From Ilex aquifolium (taxonomy: Eukaryota; Streptophyta; Magnoliopsida; Aquifoliales; Aquifoliaceae), in contig OX637399.1 in assembly GCA_951799425.1 (NCBI GenBank), forward strand, positions 32,371,201 to 32,435,200: a stretch of 64,000 bases of DNA, written 5' to 3'. The notes under the pieces are model-generated. The model was not told the DNA's origin. It searched no databases and worked only from the letters and a program-made list of their open reading frames with translations. Made by a program: the position numbers and the translations under genes. Of this stretch, positions 1 to 54,079 are shown in pieces (position 1 is the stretch's first letter; each line of letters starts with the position of its first letter).

Positions 1-1328
1 AATCATCGACCGCAATTATCACCCTCACTCTCTCACCTTCATCTACAAGTATTCTGAGTTCATCAATTTCAGTCAAAATTGTAGTATTTGTGGTCTCCAC
101 ATTTCCAAGGATGGTTGGGCTTATTGTTGTGCCCCGTGTAGATATTTTATCCACGTGGGATGTTCAATTATGACTCCAGAGTCTTTGATGTGAGTTTACT
201 CATTGTGGCTTGTTAAACTCTCACTCTTTCTACTAAAATATTTGTAGTGATTTTCTCATTGTCAACTAAATGTTTTGTTTGAAATTTTTTGGTTTCAGAG
301 GTGGTGAAAATGAGAATGAAGTTGATCAATCAATCGACCCTAATCTGTTACACTTACCGGTGACCGATGGATCGTTAGAACTGTTTAGACATTTTGCTAA
401 ACAAATCAATCTTGAAGATATTGAGAGAGAGGCAGAGCTCATCCATTGGAGTCATGAGCATCCACTAATCCTTTTTGATGTGCAAACGGACGATAATATC
501 AAGGATGAGATTACGTTATGTGATGGTTGCGTGCAACCAATATCATTTCCATCTTACTGTTGTGGTCAATGCAACTATTTTCTCCATTTAAGTTGCGTCA
601 ACTTACCACGAGAATTGCAGCACCCAATTCACCATGAACACCCAATTCACCATGAACACCTAATGGAACTTTGTCAGTGTACGAAATTCTACAAGACCTT
701 CTGGTGCGATGCTTGCCACGTACGCACAAATGGATTCTTCTACAAATGTAAAACATGTAAATTCATCATTGATGTCAAATGTGCTTTCCTACCTACTTCG
801 ATTGCACATCAAGCTCACAAGCATCCATTGGTTCAAATGAAAGCTTCAAATGATTTCTGCAATGGAGGTGGTTTCAACTTCTTTGCAAGCGGATTTAAAT
901 GTGATGATTGCAAGTTCAAAATATGTCACCCCGTTGCTCTACTCCCACGTACCATTCGGCATAGATTGGACAAACATCCCCTAACCCTGTGTTATCCTCC
1001 ATTTAGTGACCATCCGGATGAGTTTCATTGTGAAATGTGTGAGAAAGAAATAAATCCCAACTATTGGATTTATCATTGTAGTGATTGCGATCAATCGTTT
1101 CATTTTGACTGCATTAAAGACGACTATTCAAAGCTCAAGTATGGAGGTACCATTGAAATTAATTGTCATCCACACCCTCTGACATTTGTACGAAAGGCAA
1201 GAAAGAGGTCCTCGTATTACAACTGTGGTCATTCTTATGATATTGATAGTGATGGTCCCATATTTGAATGTGGAGAGTGTAATTATACATTGTGTTTATA
1301 TTGTATTCCTCCAAGTAAATTGACTTAA
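1..1328 (+). CDS. DC1-domain zinc-binding protein, copy A (5' truncated by window edge)
   Basis: Two exons are visible: 1-189 (codons start at base 2) and 299-1328, with a 109-bp GT-AG intron at 190-298. The phase is right: two bases from exon 1 complete the codon begun at the acceptor, giving Ile where B, D and E have Arg. The ATG at 270 lies in the intron and is not a start. The exon 1 part holds the end of the fourth DC1 repeat (WAYCCAPC, then FIHVGC). Exon 2 holds repeats 5-9, each HxHPL, CxxC, YxC/CxxC and HxxC-like. Repeat 7 has lost a CxxC cysteine and the final HxxC, as in D and E. An 18-bp tandem duplication at 621-656 adds six residues (HPIHHE). A basic patch RKARKR lies near the C-terminus. 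DC1 proteins are plant-specific putative zinc proteins, some linked to stress and defence; the exact role here is unknown. It looks intact as far as it is seen. Confidence 0.85.
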
Positions 1329-21512: not shown

Positions 21513-23841
21513 ATGGAGCTTCAACATTTCAGCCATGAGCATCCATTGATCCTCAAAGAAGTACAAAATGAGGGTGAAGGTGACGAATGTTTCTGTTATG
21601 CGTGTGAGAAAGTGATCTTGGACTCTGCATATAATTGTGGAGAGTGTTCTTACTTTCTACATAAAAGTTGTGCGGAACTCCCCCGGGAGGTTACACACCT
21701 TATACACTCCAAACACAAGCTAACCCTCCATACAAGTGGTACTTATGGTGATTTTGATGGGTATTCGTGTGATGTTTGTAGAGAAAGTATAAATCGATTC
21801 AACTACCAGTGTCCTCCTTGCGATTTTAATATCTGCATGTCATGTTTCAATATGCCAAACCTCGAGATTACAAATGAAGTTCATGAGCACCCTCTAGCCC
21901 CCATATTTAGGCCAACCTCTTTCTATTGTGATGTTTGCCGCATGGAGAGTAAAGATATGTCCTATGTATGTTTGACTTGTCAATTTGTGGTCCATAAGAG
22001 TTGCCTTTTGTTACCTAGAACTATCAACCGTAGTTATCACCATCACCCTCTCACTCTCATCTACCAGTATTCTATGTTAACCAATTTCAAACAGTATTGT
22101 GGTATTTGTGAGTTCTTCATTTCCACCGCCCAATGGGCTTATTGCTGTGCTCCGTGTAGATATTTTCTCCACGTGAAATGTTTAATTACAACTCCAGAGA
22201 CTTTGAGGTGAGTTTATTCATTTTATCTTTTGTATAAAATATTTATTGTAGGCCCTATCAAATATTAAAATTTGATGTTAATCTAATGATTATAATGAAA
22301 TCACATCCTTAGGTCAACAAATTATGTTAAAATTTTAAAGCTAAATAGCATTACTCTTTTCTTAGAGCAATAATATTTTTGGACTTAATTTCCTGACCTA
22401 ATTCATTACAACTACATATTGGATTGACTAGGGCCGCATCAAGCATTGGAACTTGATATTAATCTAATGGTTACAATAAAATCACATCATTAGACAAACA
22501 AATTAGATCAAATTTTTAGGTCTAAATAACTTTACTCATAGTTCCTTGATTTAGGTTAAGGGATTCTTGAATCCTTGGCCTGGTATAGGTATAAATAGAA
22601 GAAAATAGATTGATATTGGTGCGATCTTAACTATTATCAGAGATCAATTCTGCCCCCGATGGATCATTCATTTTTCTGGTATACGAAATAGAGGATTTCA
22701 TTAAGTTGATCATTAGGAAATCACGAATCGAACCTTTTGTCTTTATTTCAACAAAGGAAACATAGGTCTTTTTGTTAGAAGAATTTTATTTATCTTTCTT
22801 AATGTTAAGTAAATGTTTTGTTTGGAATTTTGTGGTTTCAGAGGTGTTGAAAATGAGAATGAAGTTGATCAATCAATCGACCCTAATCTGCTACACTTAC
22901 CGGTGACCGATGGTTCCTTAGAACTGGCTAGACATTTTGCTAAACATACTAATCTTGAAGATGTTGAGAGAGAGGCAGAGCTCATCCATTGGAGCCATGA
23001 ACATCCATTAATTCTTTTCAATGTGCGAAAGGACGATAATATCAAGGATGAGATTATCTTATGTGATGGATGTGTGCTACCAATATCATTTCTATTTTAC
23101 CGTTGTGATCAATGTGATTATTTTCTCCACTTAAATTGTGTCAGGTTACAAAGAGAATTGGAGTTCCCAATTTACCATGAACACCCACTACAACTTTCTC
23201 AGCATAGTAAATTCTACGAGGTATTCCAGTGTGCTGCTTGCGTCACATACAACAATGGATTCTTCTACACATGTAAAGCATGTGAATTCTTCCTTGATGT
23301 CAAATGTGCTTTCCTACCTACTTCGATTGCACATCAATCTCACAAGCATCCATTGGTTCAAATGAAAGGTTCAAAACATCTCTGCAAGGCATGTGATCTT
23401 ACCTTCTCTCAAAACGGATTTGGATGTGAAGCTTGCAAGTTCGATCTTGCGCATAGCTGTGCCCTACTTCCCCATACCATTACGCATAGATGGGACAAAC
23501 ATCCCCTCACACTATCCTATCCTCCATTTAGTGAACATCCTGATGAGTTCCATTGTGAAATGTGTGAGAAAGAAATAAACCCCAACTATTGGATCTATCA
23601 TTGTAATGATTGCGATCAATCATTTCATCCAGAATGCATTAAAGACAAATATTCGAACGTCAAGTATGGGGGCACCCTTAAAGTTAACCGTCATCCACAC
23701 CCTCTAAAATTTGTACGGAAGGCAAGGAAAAGGTCCTCGTATTATAGTTGTGGTGCTTCTTCTGATAGTGATAGACCCATATTTGAATGTGGAGGGTGCA
23801 ATTATACATTATGCTTAAAATGTATTACTCCGAATATTTAG
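21513..23841 (+). CDS. DC1-domain zinc-binding protein, copy B (nine DC1 repeats)
   Basis: Exons 21513-22207 and 22842-23841, with a 634-bp GT-AG intron in phase 2, give 564 residues. The ATG at 22813 is intronic. The start [12 protein letters not shown] is shared by B, C, D and E. DC1 repeats lie at about residues 8-56, 65-112, 124-171, 176-226 (exon 1) and 284-331, 344-388, 399-438, 450-498, 516-559 (exon 2). A DC1-free linker at about 233-280 ([19 protein letters not shown]) is conserved in all copies. Repeat 7 keeps its CxxC (CKAC) and HxxC, unlike A, D and E, and so is the least degraded version. A basic patch RKARKR is near 524-529. DC1 modules are expected to bind zinc; partners and pathway are unknown. 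No signal peptide or membrane segment is seen. A likely 5' UTR acceptor (TTTTTACAG) ends at 21453. Confidence 0.9.
22208..22841 (+). other. Long intron of copy B with internal duplication
   Basis: It has the same length (634 bp) as the intron of D and high similarity to it. It is about 525 bp longer than in A, C and E. It contains two diverged copies, near 22245-22350 and 22433-22540, of a unit with words like TTGATATTAATCTAATGG and AAATCACATC. Related words occur near 10050 and 24400, so the unit is dispersed. Confidence 0.7.
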
Positions 23842-24764: not shown

Positions 24765-27700
24765 ATGGAGCTTCAACATTTCAGCCATAAGCATCTATTG
24801 ATCCTCAAAGAAGTGCAAAAGGAGGATAAAGTTGACGAATTTATCTGCTATGCGTGTCAAAAAGTGATGTTAGACTCTGCATATAATTGTGGAGAGTGTT
24901 TTTATTTCTTACATAAAAGTTGTGCGGAACTCCCCCGGGAGGTTAAACACCCCACACACTCCAAGCACCTTCTAACTGTTAGTAGTATGCTCTAAGACCA
25001 ATCATATAGATGATATTTTGGAGTTGTACTACCAACATTCATTATTTACTTAAATAAAAGGGCAAGTTTATTTATCATATTTCTGCTTTATTTCATTTTA
25101 ATATACATGATATAGTCCATAGAGTATAAGTTAAGAAGATAGGTTCTCAAGGATTTGAGAAGAGGAGACATATACATCTTAGTACTTAACTCTTTAATGT
25201 TCCTAGTCATAAGATTACTATGTGGGCACTGTATAATCCGGATAGACTAGCATACACTATGCTTACTCATATTTGATATGAGGTGACTCATCCAAGTCAC
25301 TAGTGTAGGGACACTGAAGCAAGTGTATGAGTGCTTGTTAGAGAACAAGTACACTGAACATGACCGTTAACTAATGTAGGATTTTTCATATGGAGTTTTA
25401 CATACCTGTCAGTGTTAAATCCTAAAGTTATAGTTATGCAACTGATCCTTAGACTTGAAACACCATGGTTGTCTTGTGCATGAACTTCTATGCTTTAATT
25501 ATACAACATATTCATATACTAACCATGTAACTTGGATATGTATTGTTGGACATAGTTAGACATGCATGAAGACTTATGAGTGTATAAAATAGAATCTATC
25601 CTATGTGATCTTCTGGGATATGACTCAAAGAGTCCTTGGCCAATGCAGAATGACAATTAGAAAAGAGTTTCTAATTGATCATTAAGAGTCATAGTCCTAA
25701 GATCGAACACATGAGATTGAATTAGGGGTTTGACAGTAATTCCATACCCTAGTAATTCAATTGGGGCATTGTGTGATAGAAAGATTGAATTGCATGGCAA
25801 CTATAGACTGAATGAGTTCTTTACCTACTTCGTGCTATCCGAAGGTTGATCATGATATGCTGCTAGGTGTCACTCATGATTAGTAGAAGCTCGAAGAATA
25901 AAATTAATATAAATATATTAATTGTTCTTCATAAAGAGATAATTAGAAGAGTTATAATTCAAGCTAAATCAAAAAGAGTTTTAATTTGAGATGCTACTTG
26001 TAGTTAGTATCGAATGCCTACAACCGGGTATGCTTGAACCTATAGGGTCACACACAATAGAATTGATTAGAAACTAAAGGATAAAAGAGAGACAACCAAT
26101 TAAGAGTTAATTGGGGTAAAAACCTAATTAAGAGTTAATTAGGGACTTTATTACAATTAATGTTAATAAAGGGGTTATATGTAATTATGAGATAATTGCA
26201 ACTTGACCCAAATTAGGATTAGAGTCTTTAAAGCTCTATAAATACCTTTATGTAGGAGGTGGATATACACGATATAACAACTCTCTTGCTAGCACAAGAA
26301 GAACCACCCCTCATTGTCTCTCTCTACTAGTTTATCAAAGGTTGATGTAGATCCTTCTAGTTTATCAATTCGTGTGGATATCGATAGAGGCCAAACAATT
26401 GCGAGGCTTGGGGTAAAGATCAAATTCAGATTTAAAGGATCAAAGTTGTTTGAGAAAGCTTGAAGATCGTTCAAAGCACGCTTCAAAAGGTAACCTTTAA
26501 TCTTCACTATAGATATGAAGTTTCTCGGTTTGTATTAAACATGAATAGATTTTGGAATGGGGAATCAAATTTTTTAAATTATGCTGCGTTCTTTACATGA
26601 TTCCTTTCACTAACCCTCCATGCAAGTTCGCCTTATGGTTATGGGTATGCTAGTATGTATACATGTAATATCTGTGTAGAAAATGGAGATCGATTCAACT
26701 ATTATTGTTCTCCTTGCCAATTTAATATCTGCATATCATGTTTCATGGGGAAAAGTGTGATTACACATGAAGTTCATGAGCACCCTTTAGCCTTCATATT
26801 TAGGCCAACCTCTTTCCTTTGTGATTTTTGCCACATGGAACATAAAGACATGTCATATCTATGTTTGACTTGTCAATTCCTGATCCATAAGAATTGTCTT
26901 TCGTTACCTAAAACCATCAACCATTGGAATCACTCTCACCCTCTCACCTTCATCTACTAGTATTCTAAGTTAACCAATTTCGAGCAATATTGTGGTATTT
27001 GTAGTATCTCCATTTCCACCAAGTATTGGGCTTATTGTTGTGCCCGGTGTAGATATTTTATCCATGTGAGATGTTCAATTACGACTTCAAAGTCTTTGAT
27101 GTGAGTTTACTCATTGTGTATTGTTCAACCCAGTCACTCTTTCTACTAAAATATTTGCATTGATTTTCATGTTGTTAAGTAAATGTTTTGTTTAGAATTT
27201 TGTGGTTTCAGAGGTGGTGAAAGGGAGAATGAAGTTGATCAATTAACCGACCCTAATTTGCCCACTTACCGGTGACCAGTGGTTCCTTAGATATGGTAAT
27301 TAGATATTTTGATAAACTTACCAATCTTGAAGATACTGAGTGAGAGGCAAAGCTCATCCAGTGGAGCCATGAGCATCCATTAATCTTTTTTAATGTGCGA
27401 AAAGACGATGATATCAAGGATGAGATTATATTATGTGATGGTTGTGTGTAATCTATATCATTTCAGTTTTACAATTGTGGTAAATGCAACTATTTTCTCC
27501 ATTTAAGCTGCTTCAACTTACGAGTAGGAGAATTGCACTACCCAATTCACCATAAACACCCAATGGAACTTTGTAATGGTAGTAAATTCTGCTAGGTCTT
27601 TTGGTGCAGTGCTTGCTACACATACACCAATGGATTCTTCTATGAGTGTAAAAAATGTGAATTCTTCCTTGATGTCAAATGTGCTTTCCTACCTGCTAGG

Positions 27701-28027
27701 ATTGGACATCAAGCTCACAAGCATCCATTGAAACAATTGAAAAGTTCGAAACCTGTATATCACTGCAAAGCAAGTGGTTTGGAGTTCTCTACAAACGGAT
27801 TTAAATGTGGCGATTGCAAGTTCAAAATATCTCACACCAGTGCTCTACTCCCATGTACCATCAGGCATAATGGGACAGACATCTCCTCACCCAATTCTAT
27901 CATACATTTACTGACCATCTCAGTAAGTTTCATTGTGAAATATGTGAAGAAAAAACAAACCCCAACTATTTAAAGTGAAGAGTGTAATTATACAATGTGC
28001 TTACAATGTATATTACGATTATTTTGA
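24765..28027 (+). pseudogene. DC1-domain gene copy C, disrupted
   Basis: The gene starts at 24765 ([12 protein letters not shown]) and reads 70 codons of exon 1 to the insertion of a solo LTR at 24977-26609. Exon 1 resumes at 26615 and ends at 27100, with an in-frame stop near 26958 (TAG in place of a sense codon in the fourth repeat). The 111-bp intron, 27101-27211, keeps GT-AG. Exon 2 (27212-28027) has several stops (for example TAA near 27449 and TAG near 27593) and lacks about 170 bp near its 3' end, where repeats 8-9 should be. The residual repeats still show CxxC and HxxC motifs. It was a gene of the same design as A, B, D and E and is now dead. Confidence 0.9.
24972..26614. mobile_element. 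Solo LTR inside exon 1 of DC1 copy C
   Basis: The insert 24977-26609 (1633 bp) begins TG and ends CA and is flanked by the 5-bp direct repeat CTAAC at 24972-24976 and 26610-26614. The DC1 reading frame is interrupted exactly there. A TATA-like word (CTATAAATACC) near 26236 fits an LTR promoter for the plus orientation. No internal domains are seen, so it is best read as a solo LTR of a long-LTR element, family not identified. The length and missing partner suggest an older insertion that was reduced by LTR-LTR recombination. Confidence 0.75.
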
Positions 28028-31779: not shown

Positions 31780-34700
31780 TTACTGAAAAAACTTCTTAAG
31801 GTGCTCGGCATTCCATGAGTGAGGTAGGACCTTTCCTTCCTCTGTTTGCAATTCGTAATTCCCCTGTCTGATTACCCTTGACACGACATAGGGCCCTTCC
31901 CAGTTAGGTCCCAATTTTCCATGCGTGGGATCCTTTCTTGCAAGCAGAAGTTTCCTAAGCACCAAGTCTCCAGCCTTGAAGCTTCGATGCCTTACCTTCC
32001 TGTCGTAATACCTTGCAGTTTTTCTTTGGTAACTGCGGACACGATGCAGGGCTCTGTCCCTTTTTTCATCCAAGAGATCGAGGTTTAACAGGAGAGATTC
32101 ATCATTGTGCTCGGCATCTGTAAATTCCACCCTTGGTGATTGGAGCCCTATCTCCACAGGAGCTACTGCCTCGGTTCCATAGGCCAGAGCAAAGAGGTTT
32201 CCTGAGTTGCAGATCTGACGGTGGTCCGGTAAGCCCACAATACCTCAGGGATGTATTCCACCCATTTGCCTTTCAGGTTTTCCAGTTTGGTCTTCAGGGC
32301 TGACTTTATGGTTCTGATTGTGACCTCTGCCTGCCCATTGGATTGGGGATGTGCAGGGGCTGAGAAATAGTTCTTGATGCCAAGCTCGGTACAAAAGCTT
32401 CTGAATTTTGAATTGTCGAACTGCTTCCCGTTGTCAGACACGAGTGCTCTGGGAACTCCAAACCTGCAAACTATCGATTTCCACACAAAGTTTTGAACCT
32501 TTTGCTCAGTGATCGTGGCCAAGGGCTCGACCTCTGCCCACTTGGTGAAGTAATCCACCCCTATGATGGCAAACTTGCATTGCCCCACACCAGTGGGGAG
32601 GGGTCCAAGAATGTCCAAACCCCACTGATGAAAAGGCCATGGGCTAACCACCGAGGTCAGGAACTCGGGCGGACAATGGGAAACATTGGCGTGCTCTTGG
32701 CAAGTCTTGCATTTTTTTACTAAATTGGTGGCATCTTTGAGCATGGTGGGCCAGTAATATCCTTGTCTCAGTACTTTTCCAGCCAAAGCCCGGGCTCCTA
32801 TGTGATTGCCACATATTCCTTCGTGGACTTCTCTGAGTATATAGTTAGCATCCTCATCCCCCACGCATTTTAGGAGAGGCGTTGAGAATCCCCGTTTGTA
32901 CAGATTTCCTTGTAGCAAAGAAAATCTATCTGACCTGGTCCTCAGCTTAGATGCCTCCTTTGCATCACTTGGCAGCGCCCCATTCTGCAGGTACCCAATG
33001 ATGGGGTCCATCCAGCTCGGTTGTGCCTCGATCGGCAAAATGTCCTCTCCCTTGATATTTATTGAAGGCTCTGGAAGGTGTTCCACTGGTATTAGCCTAT
33101 CCAGACCTTCCTGTGGGGCGGTTGCCAACCTCGCTAGAGCATCGGCTCGTGAATTCTCTGCTCTGGGCACGTGCCTGACCTTGACCTGCACAAACTTTTT
33201 CATTAGTTCCTGTACCTTTCTGAGGTAAAGGACCATCTTTTCGCCTCTTGCTTCGTAAGACTCCTCTATCTGTTTTACTACCAGCTGAGAATCACTGCAG
33301 ATCTCGAGCTGCTCTGCTTCCATAGAATGGGCAAGATTGAACCCAGCGATGACTGCTTCATATTCTGCTTCGTTATTTGAAGTCTTGAACCCAAATCTAA
33401 GGGCATACTCGACATCTATTCCTTCTGGGGAAGTTAAGATTATTCCTGCCCCGCTTCCCTGAGCATTAGCAGCTCCATCTACTGATAGCCTCCATACGGG
33501 GAGGTCTGGTATTAAATATGTGGTCTCCATAGGCGTTACCGCTGTAAACTCTGCAATAAAATCTGCCAAAATTTGCCCTTTGATGGCAGTTCTTGGCTTA
33601 TACCTGATATCAAACTCACTGAGCTCTATGGCCCATTTAACCAACCTTCCCGAGGATTCGGGCTTATGCAGCACTTGCTTCATTGGCTGACCTGTTGGGA
33701 CCTCGATTGTATGGGCTTGGAAATAAGGCCTAAGCCGTCTAGCTGTCGTAACCAGGGCTAGAACGAGTTTTTCCATCTTTGGATATCTTTCTTCTGCCCC
33801 CCTCAGAGCTCTGCTACAGTAATAGACCGGCTGCTGAGCTCTGTCTTGTTCTCTTACCAGCGCTGCGCTTGTTGAGAAGTCTGAAACTGCTAAGTAAAGA
33901 GTAAGGACTTCCCCTTCTAGAGGACTAACCAGAACAGGCGGAGTGCTCATATATCTTTTCAGTGCTTCGAAGGCTTCTTCACACTTGGCATCCCACTGGA
34001 ACGCCTTTTTCAATATCTGAAAGAACGGCTGGCATTTATCACTTGACCTGGACACGAAACGGCTCAAGGCTGCTATCCTGCCTGTCAAGCGTTGCACTTC
34101 CCTTGTGTTGGATGGTGATTGCATTTCCACCATTGCCCTAACCTTCTCTGGGTTCGCTTCAATTCCTCTGCTGCTAACTATGAAACCTAAGAATTTTCCC
34201 GCCGAGACCCCAAACGCGCATTTCGCTGGGTTGAGCTTCATTTTGTATTCCTTTAGGATTCGGAATGATTCAGCTAAGTGCTCGATGTGGAGCTCTGCTT
34301 TTAATGATTTTACCAGCATATCGTCGATGTAAACTTTCATGGATGATCCTATCTGCTTTTGGAACATCCTATTGACCAACCGTTGGTAAGTGGCTCCAGC
34401 GTTTTTCAACCCGAAGGGCATGACCTGATAACAGTATGTTCCTTGTTCAGTTACAAAGGAGGTCTTCTCCTGGTCGCTGGGTTCCATCCTGATCTGGTTG
34501 TACCCTGAAAAGGCATCCATGAAGCTAAGGAGTTCATGTCCGGCTGTTGCGTCTACTATTAGGTCGATCCGAGGCAGAGGAAAACTATCCTTGGGACAAG
34601 CTCGGTTGAGATCAGTGAAGTCGATGCATAATCGCCATTTGCCGTTGGTTTTTTTCACGAGGACCACATTCGCCAACCAAGTAGGGTAATCGACCTCCCT

Positions 34701-37250
34701 GATGGCCTTGGCATGGATGAGTTTGCTGACCTCTTCATTAATTGTCCTTTGTCTCTCCGAGGCAAAACTTCTCCTCTTCTGCTTGACGGGCTTGCATGCT
34801 GGGTTTACACTCAGTCTATGGGTAATAACTGAAGGGTCAATTCCTTCCATGTCTTCCTGTCTCCACGCAAACACTCCTATGTTCTCTTTTAGGAACCGGA
34901 TGAGGAGTCCTTTGAGCTCAGCATTTAGTCTGGAACCCACATACACAAGGTGTTCTGGTTCCCCATCAAGTTGTACTGGCTCCAGCTCTTCCGAGGGCAT
35001 TGGTCTCGTTTCTAGCTCATCTCTCATGTCAAGTTCATCCAGTTGGATGTTCTCAACCTCTTTCCTTTTTACAGATGCCATGTAACATTCTCTTGCTACA
35101 CGCTGGTCTCCTCGGACCACTCCTATTCCGCTATCTGTAAGGAATTTCACGACTAAGTGATAGACAGATGGGATCGCCTTGATAGAGTTAAGGGATGGCC
35201 TTCCAAGCAAGATGTTGTATGCCGAGGATGCATCGACCATTAGGAATTTTACGGTGGTAGTGGCCTGGTAAGGTGGGTCCCCCAGGGTGAGCACGAGCTG
35301 AATTGAGCCTAAGGGGAGCACATTTTCCCCAGAGAATCCCAACAAGTGGGTGCTTACTGGCTCAAGTCTCTCCCTTCCTATATCCATCTTGTCAAACGCG
35401 GGTGCGAAAATGATATCCGCCGAGCTCCCATTGTCGATTAGGATCCGATGAACGGTTCTATTAGCCACCACAGCTCGCACCACCAATGGGTCATCATGAG
35501 GGTACTGGCACCACTCTAAATCTGCGTCTGAAAAAGTGATAGTTGTATCCAAGCGTGGTACTTTGGATACAACGTGCACTTCGAGAGCTTCTTCGGCTCT
35601 GATCCGGCGGAGGTGTGCCTTCCTGGCTGAGCTAGATTCTCCACCTCCCGCGAACCCTCCAGATATTACTCTGATCTCACCCAGAGGCTGCTGATGTGGC
35701 ACAGGTGCCTGCTGCTGAGGCGGTGGAGGTGGAAGAGCTCGATTCTGGTTGTCATGGGCTACGAAACGGCGCAGCTGACCTCGCTGGATCAAGAACTCAA
35801 TCTCTTTTTTTAACTGAATACAGTCATCAGTGTGGTGACCATGATCTCGGTGGTAATCACAGTACTTAGTGGAGTCTCTTTTGGCTGGATCCGCCTTCAT
35901 CCGGGGTGGCCATCGTAAGAACTTCTCGTTTTGGACCTCATATAGAACCTGCGACACAGCGGCAGTGAGTGGGGTGAATCGTTGAGGTCCATATCTGGGC
36001 TGTAGTTCAGGCTGCATGGGGCCCAGGTGATATCTGACATTTCCTCTTCTCTTTGGCAAACGATCCCTATCCCTTCTGGGGGATCTTTCTTGCCCTCTTT
36101 CCTTCTTGGGACTTCGGTCCCTTCTTTTCTCTTCTTTCTCCTTCTCCCTTCGCGAGGACGTGCCCCCTACTTTGGAGAGAAGTGCCTCTTCACCATTAAT
36201 GTACTTCTCTGCTTTGGCCAACACCTCGGCCATGCTTGCCTGAGGGTTCTTTGATATGGAGAACATCAGATCCTTTGACTGCACTCCCAAACCCGCAATA
36301 AAGGCAGTTATGGCAAATTTTTCATCTGGAACATCTACTTTTAGCGTCTCTGAGTTAAACCTTTGGACATAGGACCTCAGGTTTTCTTGAGGCCCCTGTT
36401 TCATGTTCAGCAGGTGGTAGCTCGGCTTTCTGTATGTCCGGGCTCCTATAAAGTGAGATACGAAAGCTATGGAGAGCTCTTTGAAGGATGGGATCGAGGC
36501 TGGTGGGAGTCTGTGAAACCAGGCTAGGGCGGAACCTTTCAATGTGATGGCGAAAGCTCTACAACGCACAGGATCCTGGTATCCATGCAGCTCCATCTGG
36601 TTCTTGTAAGTATTGAGGTGATCCACGGGATCTTTCGTTCCGTCAAAGACCTCTATTTGAGGCATTCTGAATTTTGGTGGGAGAGGGAAGTGTAGCACTC
36701 CCGTGGTGAATGGGGATTCGGTTTGTTGAACTAGGACATCCATTGTAACTGGAGCCTTGCTTTTTACAGCCTCTTTCATGTGGCTGAGCTCCTGCTGGAT
36801 GTCTTTGAAGCGTTGCTCCCAACGCTGCTCTTTCCTATCCTGCAGATAAGGGAAAAAGTCATCCCTGTCACCCTCGTTGTTCTGACTTTGTCCTTCGTCG
36901 TTATGACCATTCCTTGGGGGTATGTAAGGAGCGTGTCCCCTGGTCTGGCTGCCTTCTCCTCCTTCGCTGACCTCTCTAAGGGGGTCCCAGTGTCGTTGGT
37001 CCCTATGAGGGGGATTGTACTGGCCTTCTTGGGCTGGTCGTGCCTCCAGTGGGCGCTGTACGAGCCTTGATAGCTCTGCGTTCTCCCTTAGTAAACGCTG
37101 ATTGACGAGGCGAAGGGCCTCCATCTCGTTATTGATAGGAGAATTGTCCTCTAGGAGATTCCCGGGTTGTCTGGCGTTGGTAGCTTCTTGCTGGTCTTGC
37201 ATCCGTGGTAGGTTTGTTTGACTTCTGCTCATATTGCGTGTTGTTACCAT
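31780..37250 (-). CDS. Gag-pol coding region of the Tat element
   Basis: In order on the minus strand: a gag capsid-like region (about residues 190-300), a CxxH-type knuckle (CDYHRDHGHHTDDC), an aspartic protease site (IDNGSSADII), reverse transcriptase with YIDDMLV, a first RNase H (to ADFIAEF), a second, archaeal-type RNase H (SVDGAANAQGSGAG), an integrase zinc region (HxxxCGNHxG, then CKTCQ) and core (WGLDILGPLP), and an integrase C-terminal part. The last part is typical of Ty3/gypsy. The coding region as a whole looks nearly intact, with about one break. Open frames on the opposite strand are shadows. Confidence 0.9.
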
Positions 37251-37313
37251 CAGTCACTGAAGGATCAGTTTATTTGTAAGAAGGAACAGTCGTTCCCACA
37301 GATGGCGCCAAAC

Positions 37314-40726: not shown

Positions 40727-40753
40727 GTGCCTTCAGGCACGGGTTATCGCTAG
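40727..40753 (+). mobile_element. Helitron-type 3' end, plus orientation
   Basis: The hairpin GTGCC-TTCA-GGCAC is followed by GGGTTATCGCTAG and then T, as expected for a Helitron 3' terminus (CTAG before T). A second, terminus-less hairpin with the same sequence is at 40354-40367. The Helitron body would extend leftwards and may include the YggS/PROSC exons, but no 5' end was located. Confidence 0.6.
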
Positions 40754-40932
40754 TTATAAAATAATTCATAAAAATTATAAAAATACAGATTAAAACAGTA
40801 AAAATTGAAAGTTAGGTACCAAAATTATTACTTGGGTTCCGTAATCAAGTCCTCTTTTCCCAGGGCCGCATTTTTTTTACAAAGCAATTATTGAGCAGCA
40901 GTGTATAGATATGTCCTCCACTCAAATTTGGG

Positions 40933-40938
40933 CACGTG
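40933..40938. promoter_or_regulatory. G-box (CACGTG) upstream of DC1 copy D
   Basis: The word GGCACGTGGCAG is a G-box/ABRE-type core. It lies about 30 bp from the LINE insertion point. Before the LINE arrived it would have been some 340 bp nearer to the leader exon of D plus the short host stretch. Function is inferred only from the motif. Confidence 0.35.
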
Positions 40939-40961
40939 GCAGCCTATCATTTCATACCCAT

Positions 40962-43242
40962 AGTCCTTATCTTTTTTTTTTTTGGTCAAGGAAAAGTTAT
41001 ATATAGCTTAAGATATTAAAGACACAGTAAGAACGGAAAGTAAAGCAAAACAAAACCAAACAAAAAACAAAAGAACAAGAACCATTCGAAAAAGCAGGGG
41101 ACTCATCCTATCCCAGCCTTCATCTCTGCTGATAGGATTCTTTGGAGAACAACTGGAGGTCTGGTTACCCACCTAGTCGGCAAAAGACCTCTTTTCTTCA
41201 GATTCGCAATGGTGTGAGCCACTCCATTAGCTGATCTCTTCACCGATCTAAAGAGAATTTTGGGGATCCAGCTTGCATAGCCCCAGATGTCCCGTTGTAT
41301 AGTCTCGATCTCTTGGATAATTGCATCTGGCCCGTCGTTAATGGCTTCAATAAGGATTTTTGAGTCGGATTCAACCACCACTGCTTGGTATCCTTTCATA
41401 GTCGCCAATCTGCACGCTGTTCTTACTGCTTCAGCTTCAGCTACAAGTGGTGAGCCAACACATATATCAGCGGCCTCCCCATGTATAAAGCTTCCCTCGG
41501 TATCCCTTACAGCTACGCCATATGCTCCTTTTCTCGTTTCTTCCCTGAAGGCTCCATCGCAGTTGATCTTCTTCCATCCGTATAGAGGTGGCTGCCAAAC
41601 TGTATCTGACGAGCTTTTGGCTGTGGTTGCATCTGATTTTCCCTTCAAAACTAGGATCTCAGTATTGGCTTCCAAAGCTTGATTTATCACCCTTTGTGGG
41701 CATGGTTCCTGGTGGTTGTATACCCAGTCATTCCTAGCCTTCCATATAAACCAACATAGATAGGCCATTATAGATTGATTCTCCTTAGCTCTTAGATCCC
41801 CTATTCTCAATAATTGAAGGTGGGTTGTGAGCCACTCCTCAATTCTTGAGATCTTACTTCTGTCAATTGCTACTTTCAGAGGTGAGGAAAACCAGACCAT
41901 CGTGGCCCAAGGACATAGAATCAGCATGTGCTCCAATGTTTCATCTTCTTCGCCACAAACTGGGCATTTGGGATTGTTCACCAATTTCCTTTTCCATAAA
42001 GTCCATTTTGTTGCCACCGCTCCATTTGCTAGTTTCCATAGAAAAGTTTTTACCTTTGGGAGAGCTTGAACATTCCATATTAGTTTCCACAGCACTTTTG
42101 GGACTTGATAGGATGATGATGCCAGTGAGGAACTTTGGGCCTTTGTTTCATTCTGGACTTGGACATGATATCCACTCTTGACCGCATAAAGCCCGCTCTT
42201 AGTATGAGTCCATCTCAACGTATCTTGCTGGATTGTGTGGCTAAGAGGAATGGCAAGAATGACCGAGGCAATCTCGGGTATGAAAGAGGCAGAAACCAAA
42301 GATGAATTCCAAAACCTTGAGTTCTGTTCCATCAACTCTTGTACCTTCGTGACATTGCTATTGAAGGTATTAGGCATGTTTTTGTATCCAGGAACCCAGC
42401 TATCATTCCAAATATCAACCTTGCTTCCATCACCTATTTGCCAAAAGCATCCAGATTTCAAGAGATCTCTTCCTTCTATAATCCCTTTCCATATCCAAGA
42501 GTCCGTAGTTTTGGTTCTTGCCTGCCAGAAATTGTATCCTACATGATCCTTTGCTTTCAAAAATTGTGCCCATATGGAAGATGGTTGCTGTGTTAACCTC
42601 CATGCCTGTTTTGCTAGCATTGCCTTATTGAAACACTCAAGATCCCTGAATCCCATGCCTCCCTCCATCTTCCCTTTTGTCATTTGGCTCCAATTCTTCC
42701 AATGAATTCCCCTTTGCCCCGAAGATTTGCTCCACCAAAACCTTTTAATACTCGATGTAATCTCTTTACAGAAAGATAATGGAAGTTTGAAAATTGACAT
42801 TGCATAGGCAGGGATTGCCTGGACCACTGCCTTAATGAGGATTTCCTTACCTGCATGGTTAAGAAAATTTTCTTTCCACCCAGCAACCTTATTTAATATC
42901 CTATCCTTTAGCCAGTTCAACACTTGCCTCTTGGACCTCCCCCACTCAGTTGGCAGCCCCAAGTACTTCCCAGATTGGTGTAGAATAGGTACCCTAAGGA
43001 GTCCTGATATTTCTTGTTGGACTTCCATTGGGGTGTTCTTGCTAAAGATCACACCAGACTTGTTAAGATTCACCAATTGTCCTGAGGCATAGCAGTACTT
43101 GTTTAAGATTTCCATAAGTTTTTGACTTTCTGCTCTTGTTGCTGTTGAGAAGAAAACTGCATCGTCAGCAAAAAGGAGGTGAGAGATAGCAGGGGCATTC
43201 CTGTTGAGCTTGTCAGATACAGTTTGGCAGAAGTCCTTATCT
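40962..43242 (-). mobile_element. 5'-truncated L1-type LINE with 11-bp target duplication
   Basis: The insert 40973-43231 lies between direct repeats AGTCCTTATCT at 40962-40972 and 43232-43242. A poly(A) tail (T run at 40972-40983 on plus) marks the 3' end. On the minus strand an open frame runs from the truncated 5' edge to 41103. The 5' half of the element (ORF1, endonuclease, most of RT) is missing, so it was dead on arrival. Confidence 0.85.
41103..43231 (-). CDS. LINE ORF2 C-terminal part: end of RT, zf-RVT, RNase H
   Basis: The frame stays open from the truncated edge. It starts with the RT catalytic block (HLLFADDAVFF, the FADD box), then the RT thumb region (GKYLGLPTEWG, NHAGKEILIKAVVQAIP). 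A zinc-binding domain follows (CPVCGEEDETLEHMLILCPW, zf-RVT). Near the C-terminus is an RNase H domain (INCDGAF, EAEAVRTA, ESDSKILIEAI). This order is typical of plant L1-clade LINEs. The last 670 residues begin at an internal Met at 43115, which is not the real start. No stops interrupt it, so it is young, but it cannot act without the missing 5' half. Confidence 0.9.
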
Positions 43243-43705
43243 GTAATGGTGTTTTCCAGAAGTCCAAAATGTTACATTATTTGTGTCCTCTCTTCTCACT
43301 CTTTTTCTCTGTCTTCGTCTGAACAACTAGAGGGAAGAAGAAATTGGGGAGGAAACCACCATCCTCGTCTGTAAACTCCATGGCCAAGTCGACTGTGATT
43401 TCTTGTGAACAAAATTGAGGCATTGAACTGCCCGTTTAAGAGATTAGTGTCGCTGCCGAACAGAGAAAATAGTACCGGTATTCATCGGTGAGTTTCATCG
43501 ATTTTATGGTATTTTGTGAGATTTTTCTTACCAAACTAATTGATTTGATGAAAAAATATGGCCTTTTTGTCGCATGCGTGTTAGAAAGTATATATATTTG
43601 TATATATCATTGAATTCGTATTAGATATACAATTTTGTTGTTACAGAGTCGAAAACCTACCTCCCTCCCGCCTCCTCGTGATCTCTTTCCCACCAAGACA
43701 TACAG
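43243..43705 (+). promoter_or_regulatory. Upstream and leader region of DC1 copy D, with a probable 5' UTR intron
   Basis: A CT-rich leader-like stretch (about 43290-43487) ends in ATCG with GTGAGT. The 159-bp intron 43488-43646 ends TTGTTACAG, and the leader resumes at 43647 (AGTCGAAAACCTACC) up to the ATG at 43706. The same acceptor and following 50-60 bp are conserved before B (to 21453) and E, which supports a spliced leader in the family. The upstream exon is only recognisable here. Confidence 0.5.
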
Positions 43706-46019
43706 ATGGAGCTTCAACATTTCAGTCATGATCAGCATCCATTGATCCTCAAAGAAGTGCAAAAAGAGGGTGAAGGTGATGAATGTTTCTGTTATGCATG
43801 CGAGAAAGTGATCTTGGACTCTGCATATAATTGTAGAGAGTGTTCTTACTTTCTACACAAAAGTTGTGCAGAACTCCCTCGGGAGGTTGAAAACTCCCTA
43901 CACTCCAAACACCTTCTAACCCTCCATTATGATGATGAGTATAATTGTGATATCTGTAGAGCAAGTGGAAATCGATTCGGCTACTGGTGTCTTCCTTGCG
44001 ACTTTACCATCTGCATGTCATGTTACCTAGCAGAAGAACGCGTGGTTACAAATGAATTTCATGAGCACCCTTTAACCCTCATACTTAGGCCAACCTCTTT
44101 CTTTTGTGATGTTTGCAGCATGGAAAGTAAAGATATGTCCTATGTATGTTTCACTTGTCAATTCGTGGTTCATAAGAGTTGCCTTTCGTTACCTAGAACT
44201 GTGAACCGTAGTTATCATCATCACCCTCTCACTCTCATCTACCAGTATTCTACATTAACCAATTTCAAACAGTATTGTGGTATTTGCAGACTCTACATTT
44301 CCACCGCCCGTTGGGCTTATTGTTGTGCTCCGTGTAGATATTTTCTCCACGTGGAATGTTTAATTAAAACTCGGTGAGTTTATTCATTTTATCTTTTGTA
44401 TTAAAATATTTGTTGTAGGCCTATCAAATATTGAAATTTGAAATTAATTTAATAATTATAATAAAATCACATCATTAAATCAACAAATTATATTAAATTT
44501 TTAAAACTAAATAGCATTACTCTTTTCTTAGATCAATACTATCTTTAGATTTAATTTCCTGACCTAATTCATTGCAACTATATATTGGATTGATTAAGGC
44601 CCCATCAAACATTAGAATTTGATATTAATCTAATGGTTACAGTAAAATCACATCATCAGACAAACAAATTAGATTAAATTTTTAGGTCTAAATAGTATTA
44701 CTCATAGTTCCTTGATTTAGGTTAAGGGATTCTTGAATCCTTGGCCTGATATAGGTATAAATACAAGAAAACAGATTGATATTGGTGCGATCTTAACTAT
44801 TATCAGAGATCAATTCTGCCCCCAATGGATCATTCATTTTTTTGGTATACGAAATAGGGGATTTCACCAAGTTGATCATTAGGAAATCTCGAATCGAACC
44901 TTTTGTCTTTATTTCAACAAAGGGAACACAGGTCTTTTCGTTAGAAGAATTTTATTTATCTCTCTTAATGTCAAGTAAATGTTTTGTTTGGAATTTTGTG
45001 GTTTCAGAGGTGGTGAAAATGAGAATGACGTTGATCAATCAATCAACCCTAATCTGCTACACTTACCAGTGACAGATGGTTCCTTAGAACTGTTTAGACA
45101 TTTTGCTAAACAAATCAATCTTGAAGATATTGAGAGAGAGGCAGAGCTCATCCATTGGAGTCATGAGCATCCACTCATTCTTTTTGATGTGCAAAAGGAT
45201 GATGATATCAAGGATGAGATTACGTTATGTGATGTTTTCGTGCAACCAATATCATTTCCATTTTACCGTTGTGAACAATGCAACTATTTACTCCATTTAA
45301 GTTGCGTCAACTTACCACGAGAATTGCAGCACCCAATTCACGATGAGCACCCAATGAAACTTTGTCAGGGTCCGAAATTCTACAAGACCTTCTTGTGCGA
45401 TGCTTGCTGGGTATGGACAAATGGATTCTTCTGCAAATGTGAAACATGTAAATTCATCCTTGATATCAAATGTGCTTTCCTACCTACTTCGATTGCACAT
45501 CAAGCTCACAAGCATCCATTGGTTCAAATGAAAGGTTCAAAAGATATCTGCAATGGAAGTGGTTTCGAATGCTCTACAAGCGGATTTAAATGTGATGATT
45601 GCAAGTTCAAAATATGGCACGCCAATGCTCTACTCCCACGTAACATCAGGCATAGATTGGACAAACATCTCCTAACCCTGTGTTATTCTCCATTTAGTGA
45701 TCATCCTGATGAGTTTCATTGTGAAATGTGTGAGGACGAAATAAATCCCAACCGTTGGATCTATCATTGTAGTGATTGCGATAAATCGTTTCATCTTTTC
45801 TGCATTAAAGGCAACTATTCAAACGTCAAGTATGGAGGTATCATTGAAGTTAATTGTCATCCACACCCTCTGATATTTGTACGAAAGGCAAGGAAGAGAT
45901 CCTCGTATTACAGCTGTGGTCATTCTTTTGATATTGATAATGATGGTCCCATATTTGAACGTGGAGAGTGTAATTATACATTGTGCTTTGTCTGTATTAC
46001 TCCAAGTATATTGACTTAA
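43706..46019 (+). CDS. DC1-domain zinc-binding protein, copy D (hybrid copy)
   Basis: Exons 43706-44373 and 45008-46019, with a 634-bp intron (GT-AG, phase 2), give 559 residues. The start is [13 protein letters not shown]. Exon 1 holds four DC1 repeats and is closest to B ([16 protein letters not shown]). The last five codons before the junction are missing relative to B, but the frame is kept. Exon 2 holds repeats 5-9 and is closest to A and E ([15 protein letters not shown]). Two zinc-ligand positions are changed: CDGC has become CDVF (residue 300, repeat 5) and FECG has become FERG (residue 541, repeat 9). Repeat 7 is degenerate as in A and E. It may be expressed, but it has fewer complete zinc sites than its paralogues. 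A LINE sits upstream, at 40973-43231. Confidence 0.88.
44374..45007 (+). other. Long intron of copy D
   Basis: 634 bp, closely matching the intron of B, with the same internal repeat pair (about 44415-44520 and 44600-44705). The 3' part (44800-44970) can be read as an open frame continuing into the exon, but the same sequence in B and the clean splice sites mark it as intron. Confidence 0.7.
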
Positions 46020-46769
46020 TGTTTATTAGAAGTTCTAATGGTTGAAATGATCATGAAATTGTATTATTGGTTAAGCAATGTTGTCGTCCACTGACATCTC
46101 ATGAAAGAGGATAATGCTTCAATAGAGAAGAGCACAAGGACTAATTTGATCTGTCTCTCCTCGCTCTTCCTCTCTCCCTCTCCCTGTCAGCCTTCTCTAA
46201 ATGTACGGACAAATAATTTATGTAAAATTGAGGTACAGTTTGAATGTAATCATCTTAAAATGATTGTCATGTTTCTTTTAAAAACAGTTTTAAACAACAT
46301 GTAACTGATTTTTTTTATTTTTTATTTTTGAACATGAACATGTAATTGAATGCAGGGCTTATATAATGCTTTCATCATTGCAGATCACAGTGAGATAACT
46401 AGCAAATAAATACGGAAAAACACCGTTCACTCTAGCCTTATCTTGATTGTAATTAATTGGAGGTTTTTTATTTTTTTAAAAAATATTTATGATCTATCCA
46501 CGTAAACAAATTTTATCTTAATCTTTAATAAACTCAAATAAACAGAATTTACTCACGTGTGTGTGTGCAGATCTTCATCATTCAAAAATAAATTAAAAAA
46601 TTCTTTAATTATTAGATAATTTTCATAGATAAGGCTCAATAGTTGGCAAGCCGGGTAGAGAAAAGAAGTATGTTCTTTGATTGAAACGATGCTTTTTCTC
46701 TGCTCCAAGCAATCAATAGTTGGCAAGCTGAGTAGAAAAGAGCAACAGGCCACGTTGGGCTAGTCCACT
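46020..46769. other. 3' flank of copy D
   Basis: It matches 1329-2066 and 54080-54750. Part of a GGCAAGC-containing word (AATAGTTGGCAAGC) is doubled near 46640 and 46725. No gene is seen. Confidence 0.6.
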
Positions 46770-52250: not shown

Positions 52251-54079
52251 ATGGAGCTTCAACATTTCAGCCATGAGCATCCATTGATCCTCAAAGAAGT
52301 GCAAAAGGAGGGTGAAGGTGACAAATGTTTCTGCTATGCGTGTGAGAAAGTGATATTAGACTCTGCATATAATTGTGGAGATTGTTCTTACTTTCTACAC
52401 AAAAGTTGTGCAGAACTCCCCCAGGAGGTTAAACACTACACACACTCTAAACACCTTCTAACCCTCCATCCATGTTCACCTTATAGTAGTGGTGGGTATA
52501 CTTGTGATACTTGTGAAGAAGATAGAGATCGATTCAACTACTTTTGTTCTCTTTGCAAGTTTAATATATGCATATCATGTTTTATTCCGAAATATGAGAT
52601 TACACCTGAAGTGCAACGCGAGATTACACATGAACTTCATGAACACTCTTTAACCCCCATACTTAGGCGAATCTCTTTCATTTGTGATGTTTGCCGCATA
52701 AAAAGTGAAGACATGTCCTATATATGTTTGACTTGTCAATTCTTGGTCCATAAGAGTTGTCTTTCGTTACCTAAAATCATCAACCGTAATTATCACCATC
52801 ACTCTCTCACCTTCATCTACAAGTATTATGAGTTCATCAATTTCAGACAAGAGTGTGGTATTTGTGGTCTCTACATTTCCCAGGATGGTTGGGCTTATTG
52901 TTGTACCCTGTGTAGATATTTTATCCACGTGAGATGTTCAATTATGACTCCAATGTCTTTGAGGTGAGTTTACTCATTTTGTCTTGTTTAACTCTGTTAC
53001 TCTTTCTACTAAAATATTTGTAGTGATTTCTCATTGTCAAGTAAATGTTTTGTTTGGAATTTTGTGGTTTCAGATGTGGTGAAAATGAGAATGAAGTTGA
53101 TCAATCAATCGACCCTAATCTGCTACACTTACCGGTGATCGATGGTTCCTTAGAACTGTTTAGACATTTTACTAAACAAATCATTCTTGAAGATATTGAG
53201 AGAGAGGCAGAGCTCATTCATTGGAGTCATGAGCATCCACTAATCCTTTTCGATGTGCAAAATGACGATGATATCACGGATGAGATTACGTTATGTGATG
53301 GTTGCATGCAACCAATATCATTTCCATTTTACCGTTGTGGTCAATGCAACTATTTTCTCCATTTAAGTTGCGTCAACTTACCACGAGAATTGCAGCACCC
53401 AATTCGCCATGAACACTCAATGGAACTTTGTCGGGGTACGGAATTCTACAAGACCGTCAAGTGCTACGCTTGCTGGGTACACACAAATGGATTCTTCTAC
53501 AAATGTGAAACATGTGAAATCATCCTTGATGTCAAATGTGCTTTCCTACCTACTTCGATTGCCCATCAAGCTCACAAGCATCCATTGGTTCAAATGAAAG
53601 GTTCAGAAGATATCTGCAATGGAGCTGGTTTCTCCTTCTGTACAAGCGGATTTAAATGTGATGATTGCAAGTTCAAAATATGTCACGACAGTGCTCTACT
53701 CCCACCTACCATCAGGCATAGATGGGACAGACATCCCCTCACCCTTTGCTATCCTCCATATAGTGACCATCCTGATGAGTTTCATTGTGAAATGTGTGAG
53801 GACGAAATAAATCCCAAATATTGGATCTATAATTGTAGTGATTGCGATCAATCGTTTCATCTTTACTGTATTAAAGATTACTATTCAAACATCAAGTATG
53901 GAGATACCGTTGAAGTTAATTGTCATCTACACCCTCTGACATTTGTACGAAAGGCAAGGAAGAGGTCCTCGTATTACAGCTGCGGTGATTCTTCTGATAG
54001 TGATAAACCCATATTCGAATGTGGTGAGTGCAATTATACATTGTGCTTAAATTGTATTACTCCAAATATATTTACTTAA
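52251..54079 (+). CDS. DC1-domain zinc-binding protein, copy E
   Basis: Exons 52251-52963 and 53074-54079, with a 110-bp GT-AG intron in phase 2, give 572 residues. It starts [12 protein letters not shown], with four DC1 repeats in exon 1 and five in exon 2. Between repeats 2 and 3 it has a unique extension, ITPEVQREITHELHEH, in which a short segment is doubled. The codon at the exon 2 start gives RCGENE where the others have RGGENE or RGVENE. Repeat 7 is degenerate (CNGAG, CHDS) as in A and D; the other repeats keep CxxC and HxxC. The basic patch RKARKR is kept. The upstream block is like that of B; the short intron, exon 2 and 3' flank are like those of A. The gene appears intact, and its function is not known beyond probable zinc binding. 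Confidence 0.9.

Follow-up and report, generated by a model that had tools for sequence, protein, structure and literature searches.

Reassortment of sequence within tandem gene arrays is already known, and unequal crossing over in such an array is said, for example, to have produced the chimeric CYP21A1P/A2 genes. In the portions of the literature considered here, conversion between paralogues is described as requiring sufficient homology, with tracts that average 200-500 bp in yeast and rodents (PMC3924818), and DC1 gene numbers are cited as 73 for Arabidopsis and 21 for tomato (PMC10707348). The term “gene conversion” is absent from the main text of the two DC1 family papers searched for it, PMC13033517 and PMC10707348, and the portions of them considered here are silent on such reassortment. 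We report a new and well-delimited case from Ilex aquifolium: gene D of a DC1 array, located in a window of 64,000 nucleotides (assembly GCA_951799425.1, contig OX637399.1, here C9, positions 32,371,201-32,435,200; unprefixed coordinates are those of the window). Ten copies were compared (A, B, C, D, E, F, G, H, I and Z), and the rest of the genome was searched for nearer relatives of D.

The exons of D have incompatible genealogies, the gene carries two breakpoints, and the blocks outside these breakpoints agree with each other. We propose, with a probability of about 60%, that D began as a G/A-type gene and that ectopic gene conversion wrote an F/Z-like type-I tract of about 1.4 kb over its exon 1 and intron (Table 1). 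The exon 1 tree distinguishes type I (D, Z, F, B), type II (G and E, with A where present) and type III (H, I, C); the exon 2 tree places D, Z, F, E, G and A against B, H, I and C with 100% support. Approximately unbiased (AU) tests reject the D, Z, F, B grouping on exon 2 (p=0.0002) and a D, G, E grouping on exon 1 (p=1.5e-8), and the pairwise homoplasy index (PHI) yields p=0.001 both for the two exons together and for exon 1 by itself. Along sliding windows, the identity of B to D is 88-95% in the intron and 71-87% from 45,104 on, and A keeps to 89-95% in exon 2; none of the nine relatives compared is nearest to D over its full length. In the CT-rich 3' flank, taken over 46,180-46,330, Z, G, E and A are 90.7-94.0% identical to D, and F, B, H, I and C reach about 49-51% on fewer aligned columns. 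A preliminary description of this DNA had noted both the conflict between the exons and the resemblance of exon 2 and the 3' flank to A and E rather than B, and these observations hold; the peptides it quoted were also found (one in B; one common to D and A, from which E differs at two residues, LFRHFTKQIILEDIE; a different one in exon 2 of B).

The switch from type I to type II in D lies near the intron/exon 2 border. Among 720 ordered triples of copies, 666 were tested and 128 pass p*720<0.01, 24 of these with D as the child; no triple with H, I or C as the child was significant among the 666. The triplet test that takes A and B as parents was limited to 44,040-46,144, as A lacks a homologous exon 1 before that point. 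In it, D is B-like up to 45,083 and A-like from 45,093 (p=2e-16), in agreement with the earlier placement of the switch between the end of the intron and about 45,090. Replacing A with G puts the switch at 45,080-45,093 (p=1e-9) and replacing it with E puts it at 44,968-44,972 (p=4e-12); in the triplets with E outside and B inside, Z switches at 44,972-45,009 and F at 45,009-45,013. When A and B are taken as the parents across 44,040-46,144, a common switch interval of 45,083-45,093 is obtained for D, Z and F (p<=3e-15). A reading of D as a unique hybrid of B with A or E is therefore rejected, since Z and F carry the same internal switch.

A second breakpoint, near 43,660, was overlooked in the preliminary description. 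Upstream of it, G alone among the copies matches D: the two are 92.6% identical over 43,250-43,590, where the other eight copies reach at most 51.4% with fewer aligned columns, and the stretch adjoining the gene (43,600-43,664) holds 16 informative sites for G and 2 for F. A genome search with 43,230-43,612 returned G at 93%, then weaker dispersed matches at 67-85%, and also one 53-bp match of 93% at C9:32,357.7k. With G outside and B inside, the tract runs from 43,664 to 45,080-45,093 when the upstream flank is left out (p=1e-9); when it is included, sites favour G over B by 137:8 before the tract, 38:81 inside it and 126:52 after it (p=5e-5, the permutation floor). Farther upstream the two flanks remain collinear, G 963-1132 matching 40,751-40,921 at 91% and G from 1136 matching from 43,240, on either side of a long interspersed nuclear element (LINE) with zf-RVT and RVT_3 domains. 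The duplicated target site AGTCCTTATC stands at 40,962 and 43,232, with a T-run beside the first. Two breakpoints give D at least three segments, and it is therefore a better fit to a conversion tract than to a single exchange.

Structural differences fall into the same blocks. Hand scoring of the alignment covered six characters: the type of 5' flank, the 18-bp deletion, a 21-bp insertion, the intron insertion, a 6-bp indel near 45,930 and the type of 3' flank. A and C are unscored for some of them. In the four-gamete test all four combinations occur in 8 of the 15 character pairs. The three middle characters are mutually compatible. All of them conflict with the 5' flank, and each is also in conflict with one or both of the 3' characters, although the 21-bp insertion and the 3' flank type do not conflict; between the 5' flank and the two 3' characters there is no conflict. 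Replacement of the middle, with the outsides staying together, would be expected to leave such a pattern. D has the two breakpoints and the single-lineage outer sequence by which a conversion tract is recognized. It departs from the chimera left by an unequal crossover, with one switch and each flank from a different parent, in that its flanks are compatible and of the G/A kind; Z corresponds to such a chimera in outline.

The predicted gene model of D has GT/AG splice sites and an open frame, and several C1_2 (PF03107) repeats above the Pfam cut-off of 26 bits place it among plant DC1 genes (131.9 bits in exon 1, 96.4 bits in exon 2). The intron had been said to split the repeats 4+5. For exon 1, Pfam recovers four significant C1_2 stretches in each of B, D and E; for exon 2 it recovers five in B, four in A, four in E and three in D. 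The complete 4+5 arrangement is thus found by Pfam in B only. D is without two cysteines that are kept in 9/9 and 8/9 other copies; special decay of D was considered and rejected, as eight other copies (C not counted) show 1 to 4 private Cys/His losses. Across the genome, 150 C1_2 matches were scored out of 532 candidates, mainly clustered on C9, C6, C15, C7, C2 and C5.

Within the type-I tract, and among the copies inside the window, D follows B through exon 1 and the intron, as claimed earlier; the intron is 634 bp long in both (22,208-22,841 in B) and carries the insertion in both. The window taken by itself is misleading, however, since copies elsewhere in the genome are closer: the identity to D over all of exon 1 is 92.6% for F and 91.7% for Z, against 87.7% for B. 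Sliding windows show B as the nearest copy only within the last ~240 bp of exon 1, and a sister pairing of D and B on exon 1 is rejected (AU test p=0.007; Shimodaira-Hasegawa (SH) test p=0.07). A possible F-like to B-like change inside exon 1 of D is suggested near 44,165 (p=6e-4) and also seen in painting, although F could instead be the altered copy; low-penalty painting splits exon 2 into many short pieces and was judged untrustworthy. The 18-bp exon 1 deletion of D, its intron insertion and its A/E-like exon 2 are all present in Z and F. The insertion in D contains two diverged copies of a ~100-bp unit, and parts of the insertion have matches among dispersed repeats in other regions of the genome; the repeated unit at 44,417-44,780 matches a tandem array with a spacing of ~190 bp at C4:16,651.4-16,653.2k. 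The intron of G is 111 bp long.

Table 1. Coordinates of gene D, its segments and flanks, and the other array copies with mapped positions.
Feature	Position	Strand	Remarks
D upstream flank, collinear with G upstream	40,751-40,971	+	cut off by the LINE
LINE, 5'-truncated	40,972-43,231	-	absent from G; splits the D/G-type flank; 10-bp target-site duplication AGTCCTTATC
D segment 1	43,240-43,664	+	5' flank and 5' untranslated region (UTR), G-like
D segment 2	43,665-45,083	+	type-I tract (exon 1 and intron), F/Z/B-like
D segment 3	45,008-46,019	+	exon 2, type II (A/E/G-like)
D coding region	43,706-44,373 and 45,008-46,019	+	1,680 nt, 559 aa, open frame
D exon 1	43,706-44,373	+	four DC1 repeats (Pfam)
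18-bp deletion	43,926-43,927 (approximate site)	+	common to D, Z, F; B, G, E, H, I, C have 15-24 letters there
D intron	44,374-45,007	+	634 bp
Intron insertion, ~0.5 kb	about 44,420-44,960	+	common to D, B, F and Z (partly deleted in Z); absent from A, C, E, G, H, I
Right-hand switch interval, type I to type II	44,968-45,093	+	triplet tests
CT-rich 3' flank	46,145-46,740	+	common to D, A, E, G (in part), Z; not in B, C, F, H, I
Copy A, type II	1-1,328	+	exon 1 homology to D from D-equivalent 44,036 only; 5' part missing
Copy B	21,513-23,841	+	type-I exon 1 and intron, divergent exon 2
Copy C, broken	24,765-28,020	+	type-III exon 1, ~1.6 kb insert at 24,977-26,610
Copy E, type II	52,251-54,079	+	intron 110 bp
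Copy Z	C9:32,350.5-32,353.5k		outside window, ~64 kb upstream of D
Copy F	C9:32,455.3-32,457.8k		outside window, ~40 kb downstream of D

The locus of D is of the G/A kind, as the 5' flank in common with G and the type-II character of exon 2 and the 3' flank show. Most probably, another member of the array, a type-I paralogue, acted as repair template for 43,665-45,083, and the first four DC1 repeats were replaced with the remainder of the gene kept. That this was a single event, and conversion rather than two crossovers, we infer together with the direction of transfer, which is likely on the evidence of sequence distances. Between D, Z and F on one side and type II on the other, the Jukes-Cantor (JC) distance is 0.193 for exon 1 (taken to E and G) and 0.112 for exon 2 (taken to E, G and A); the exon 2 value does not exceed the 0.123 found within D, Z and F. 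Exon 2 of B is ~0.2 from types II and III, like the inter-type distances in exon 1. These values are consistent with a type-I gene B that has stayed unchanged and with D, Z and F made of a type-I part joined to a type-II part.

Several observations weigh against this reading. PHI reaches p=0.055 on exon 2 alone, and the left breakpoint is mostly based on flank without homology in the other copies. In the scan of 666 triples, the triplets with A took in some non-homologous A columns; the repeat restricted to 44,040-46,144 gave the same interval. When F is placed inside, the tract extends to 46,137, because exon 2 of F is also type II. The right breakpoint obtained with parents A and B is identical in D, Z and F, an outcome that a single ancient event, or an alteration of B, would produce as well. 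Synonymous distances (dS) support the switch less strongly than total distances do: from D, Z and F to E and G, dS is 0.240 [0.164-0.346] for exon 1 and 0.211 [0.165-0.264] for exon 2, with overlapping intervals. In exon 2, the dS of B to each of the groups is the highest (0.38-0.39), so that B could be the odd copy. Finally, Z is B-like upstream (90.1%, against 81.0% to E) and type II on its 3' side, and it therefore looks like the product of a single crossover rather than of conversion.

The pattern in Z is also what recommends the main rival, two successive unequal crossovers, the first at the intron/exon 2 border, yielding a Z-like ancestor of Z and D (with F altered further), and the second in the 5' UTR, giving D its G-like flank. 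This history is possible though unlikely. It would account for the internal switch interval and the 18-bp deletion that D, Z and F have in common, and the SH test leaves a D, Z, F group on exon 2 standing (p=0.08); the AU test rejects that group (p=0.009), which weakens the idea that exon 2 of these three copies is a single inherited block, and D would need two events where one tract suffices, as its outer blocks are compatible. The tests diverge in the same way for an E, G, A group on exon 2, which AU rejects (p=0.015) and SH does not (p=0.24). An improbable alternative makes B the recombinant: D, Z and F would keep the ancestral type-I state, and B alone would have acquired, from a C/H/I-like or unsampled copy, its divergent exon 2 and 3' flank. 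B is the sole type-I copy without an A/E-like exon 2, it joins H, I and C in the fully supported exon 2 tree, it has its 3' flank in common with C, and its high exon 2 dS points the same way; as a child of F and H it reaches p=1.3e-5, a borderline value once the 720 triples are corrected for. Yet the distance from B to H, I and C is similar in both exons (0.192 and 0.200), which argues against a recent transfer from them, D, Z and F should then lie ~0.19 from type II in exon 2 rather than at the 0.112 found, and the 5' breakpoint of D is left unexplained. With more distant DC1 copies as the root, the exon 2 tree does not separate the branching order of B, H/I and type II (support 58).

Explanations without any exchange fare worse. 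Uneven selection or rates between the exons could in principle mimic a switch, and the high dN/dS (nonsynonymous to synonymous ratio) between types I and II in exon 1 (0.78) means that amino-acid change contributes to the divergence there; the overlapping dS intervals would suit this as well. However, indels and flank types, which are insensitive to such rates, fail the four-gamete test, and the silence of H, I and C in the triplet scan argues that the test does not fire everywhere, making this account very unlikely. It is scarcely credible that the assembly fused two copies: the judgement is made on assembled sequence, but the same internal junction recurs in Z and F, and in most windows per segment D is ~4-12% from its nearest relative, which argues against a join of two present copies.

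The surroundings of the hybrids suggest a broader process. The type-I exon 1 and intron occur in three flank contexts, G-like upstream of D, B-like upstream of Z and E-like in the distal upstream of F (C9:32,453.8-32,454.8k, nearest E at 92.8% over 1,075 aligned bases). Since exon 1 of F is type I, a further putative switch lies near its promoter; the ~320 bp adjoining the gene are near B (91.5%), and its type-II exon 2 is followed by a 3' flank of the B/C/H/I kind. With D, Z and F in such differing surroundings, exchange of pieces within the array takes more than one form. A more doubtful extension is that the first four and last five DC1 repeats are separately inherited modules, the type-I exon 1 and intron acting as a cassette copied between loci. 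Repeat insertions have been reported to block conversion in globin genes. In this array, pairing between types I and II would halt at the intron insertion and exchange would resume just beyond it, at the intron/exon 2 border; the insertion may thus fix where inter-type exchange resumes.

Other copies and neighbouring elements show further changes. The exon 1 insert of C resembles by eye a solo long terminal repeat, with TG...CA ends and CTAAC at both sides, and an in-frame stop was seen by eye in its exon 2. Copy F (C9:32,455,363-32,456,723) has a 31-bp tandem duplication closing exon 1; it is probably a pseudogene, because splicing at the predicted sites gives a frame that ends after 240 residues. 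E and G differ by dS 0.042 and dN 0.061 in exon 1 and by dS 0.204 in exon 2, and their near-identity at exon 1 silent sites may reflect either another exon-wise exchange or selection on exon 1. Scattered fragments of more DC1 copies lie at C9:32,356.3-32,360.6k (loci L062, L038 and L030), one of them adjoining an 87-bp stretch that is 94% identical to window 43,559-43,645. Between C and D, window 32,163-37,253 (minus strand) holds a Ty3/gypsy-type gag-pol open frame with gag, reverse transcriptase, RNase H and integrase domains.

The case represents a well-delimited modular exchange in a plant DC1 array, in which the four-repeat and five-repeat protein halves have different genealogies; whole-protein DC1 gene trees and orthology calls in such arrays can therefore mislead. 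With ten copies of graded divergence, the array could also help to test whether the intron insertion limits conversion. Relative to known systems, D resembles ectopic (interlocus) gene conversion between tandem duplicates, in that a bounded stretch follows one paralogue and the outer blocks another group; its tract of ~1.4 kb exceeds the yeast and rodent averages given in the portion of PMC3924818 considered here. Chimeras of unequal crossing over, such as CYP21A1P/A2, are instead the counterpart of Z, with a single in-gene switch and one flank per parent; unlike them, D has two flanks that are both of the G/A type, and the internal switch is present in three copies. Like the plant DC1 family as described in the consulted part of PMC10707348, D encodes several PF03107 repeats per protein; the present array differs from that description in mixing its exons.
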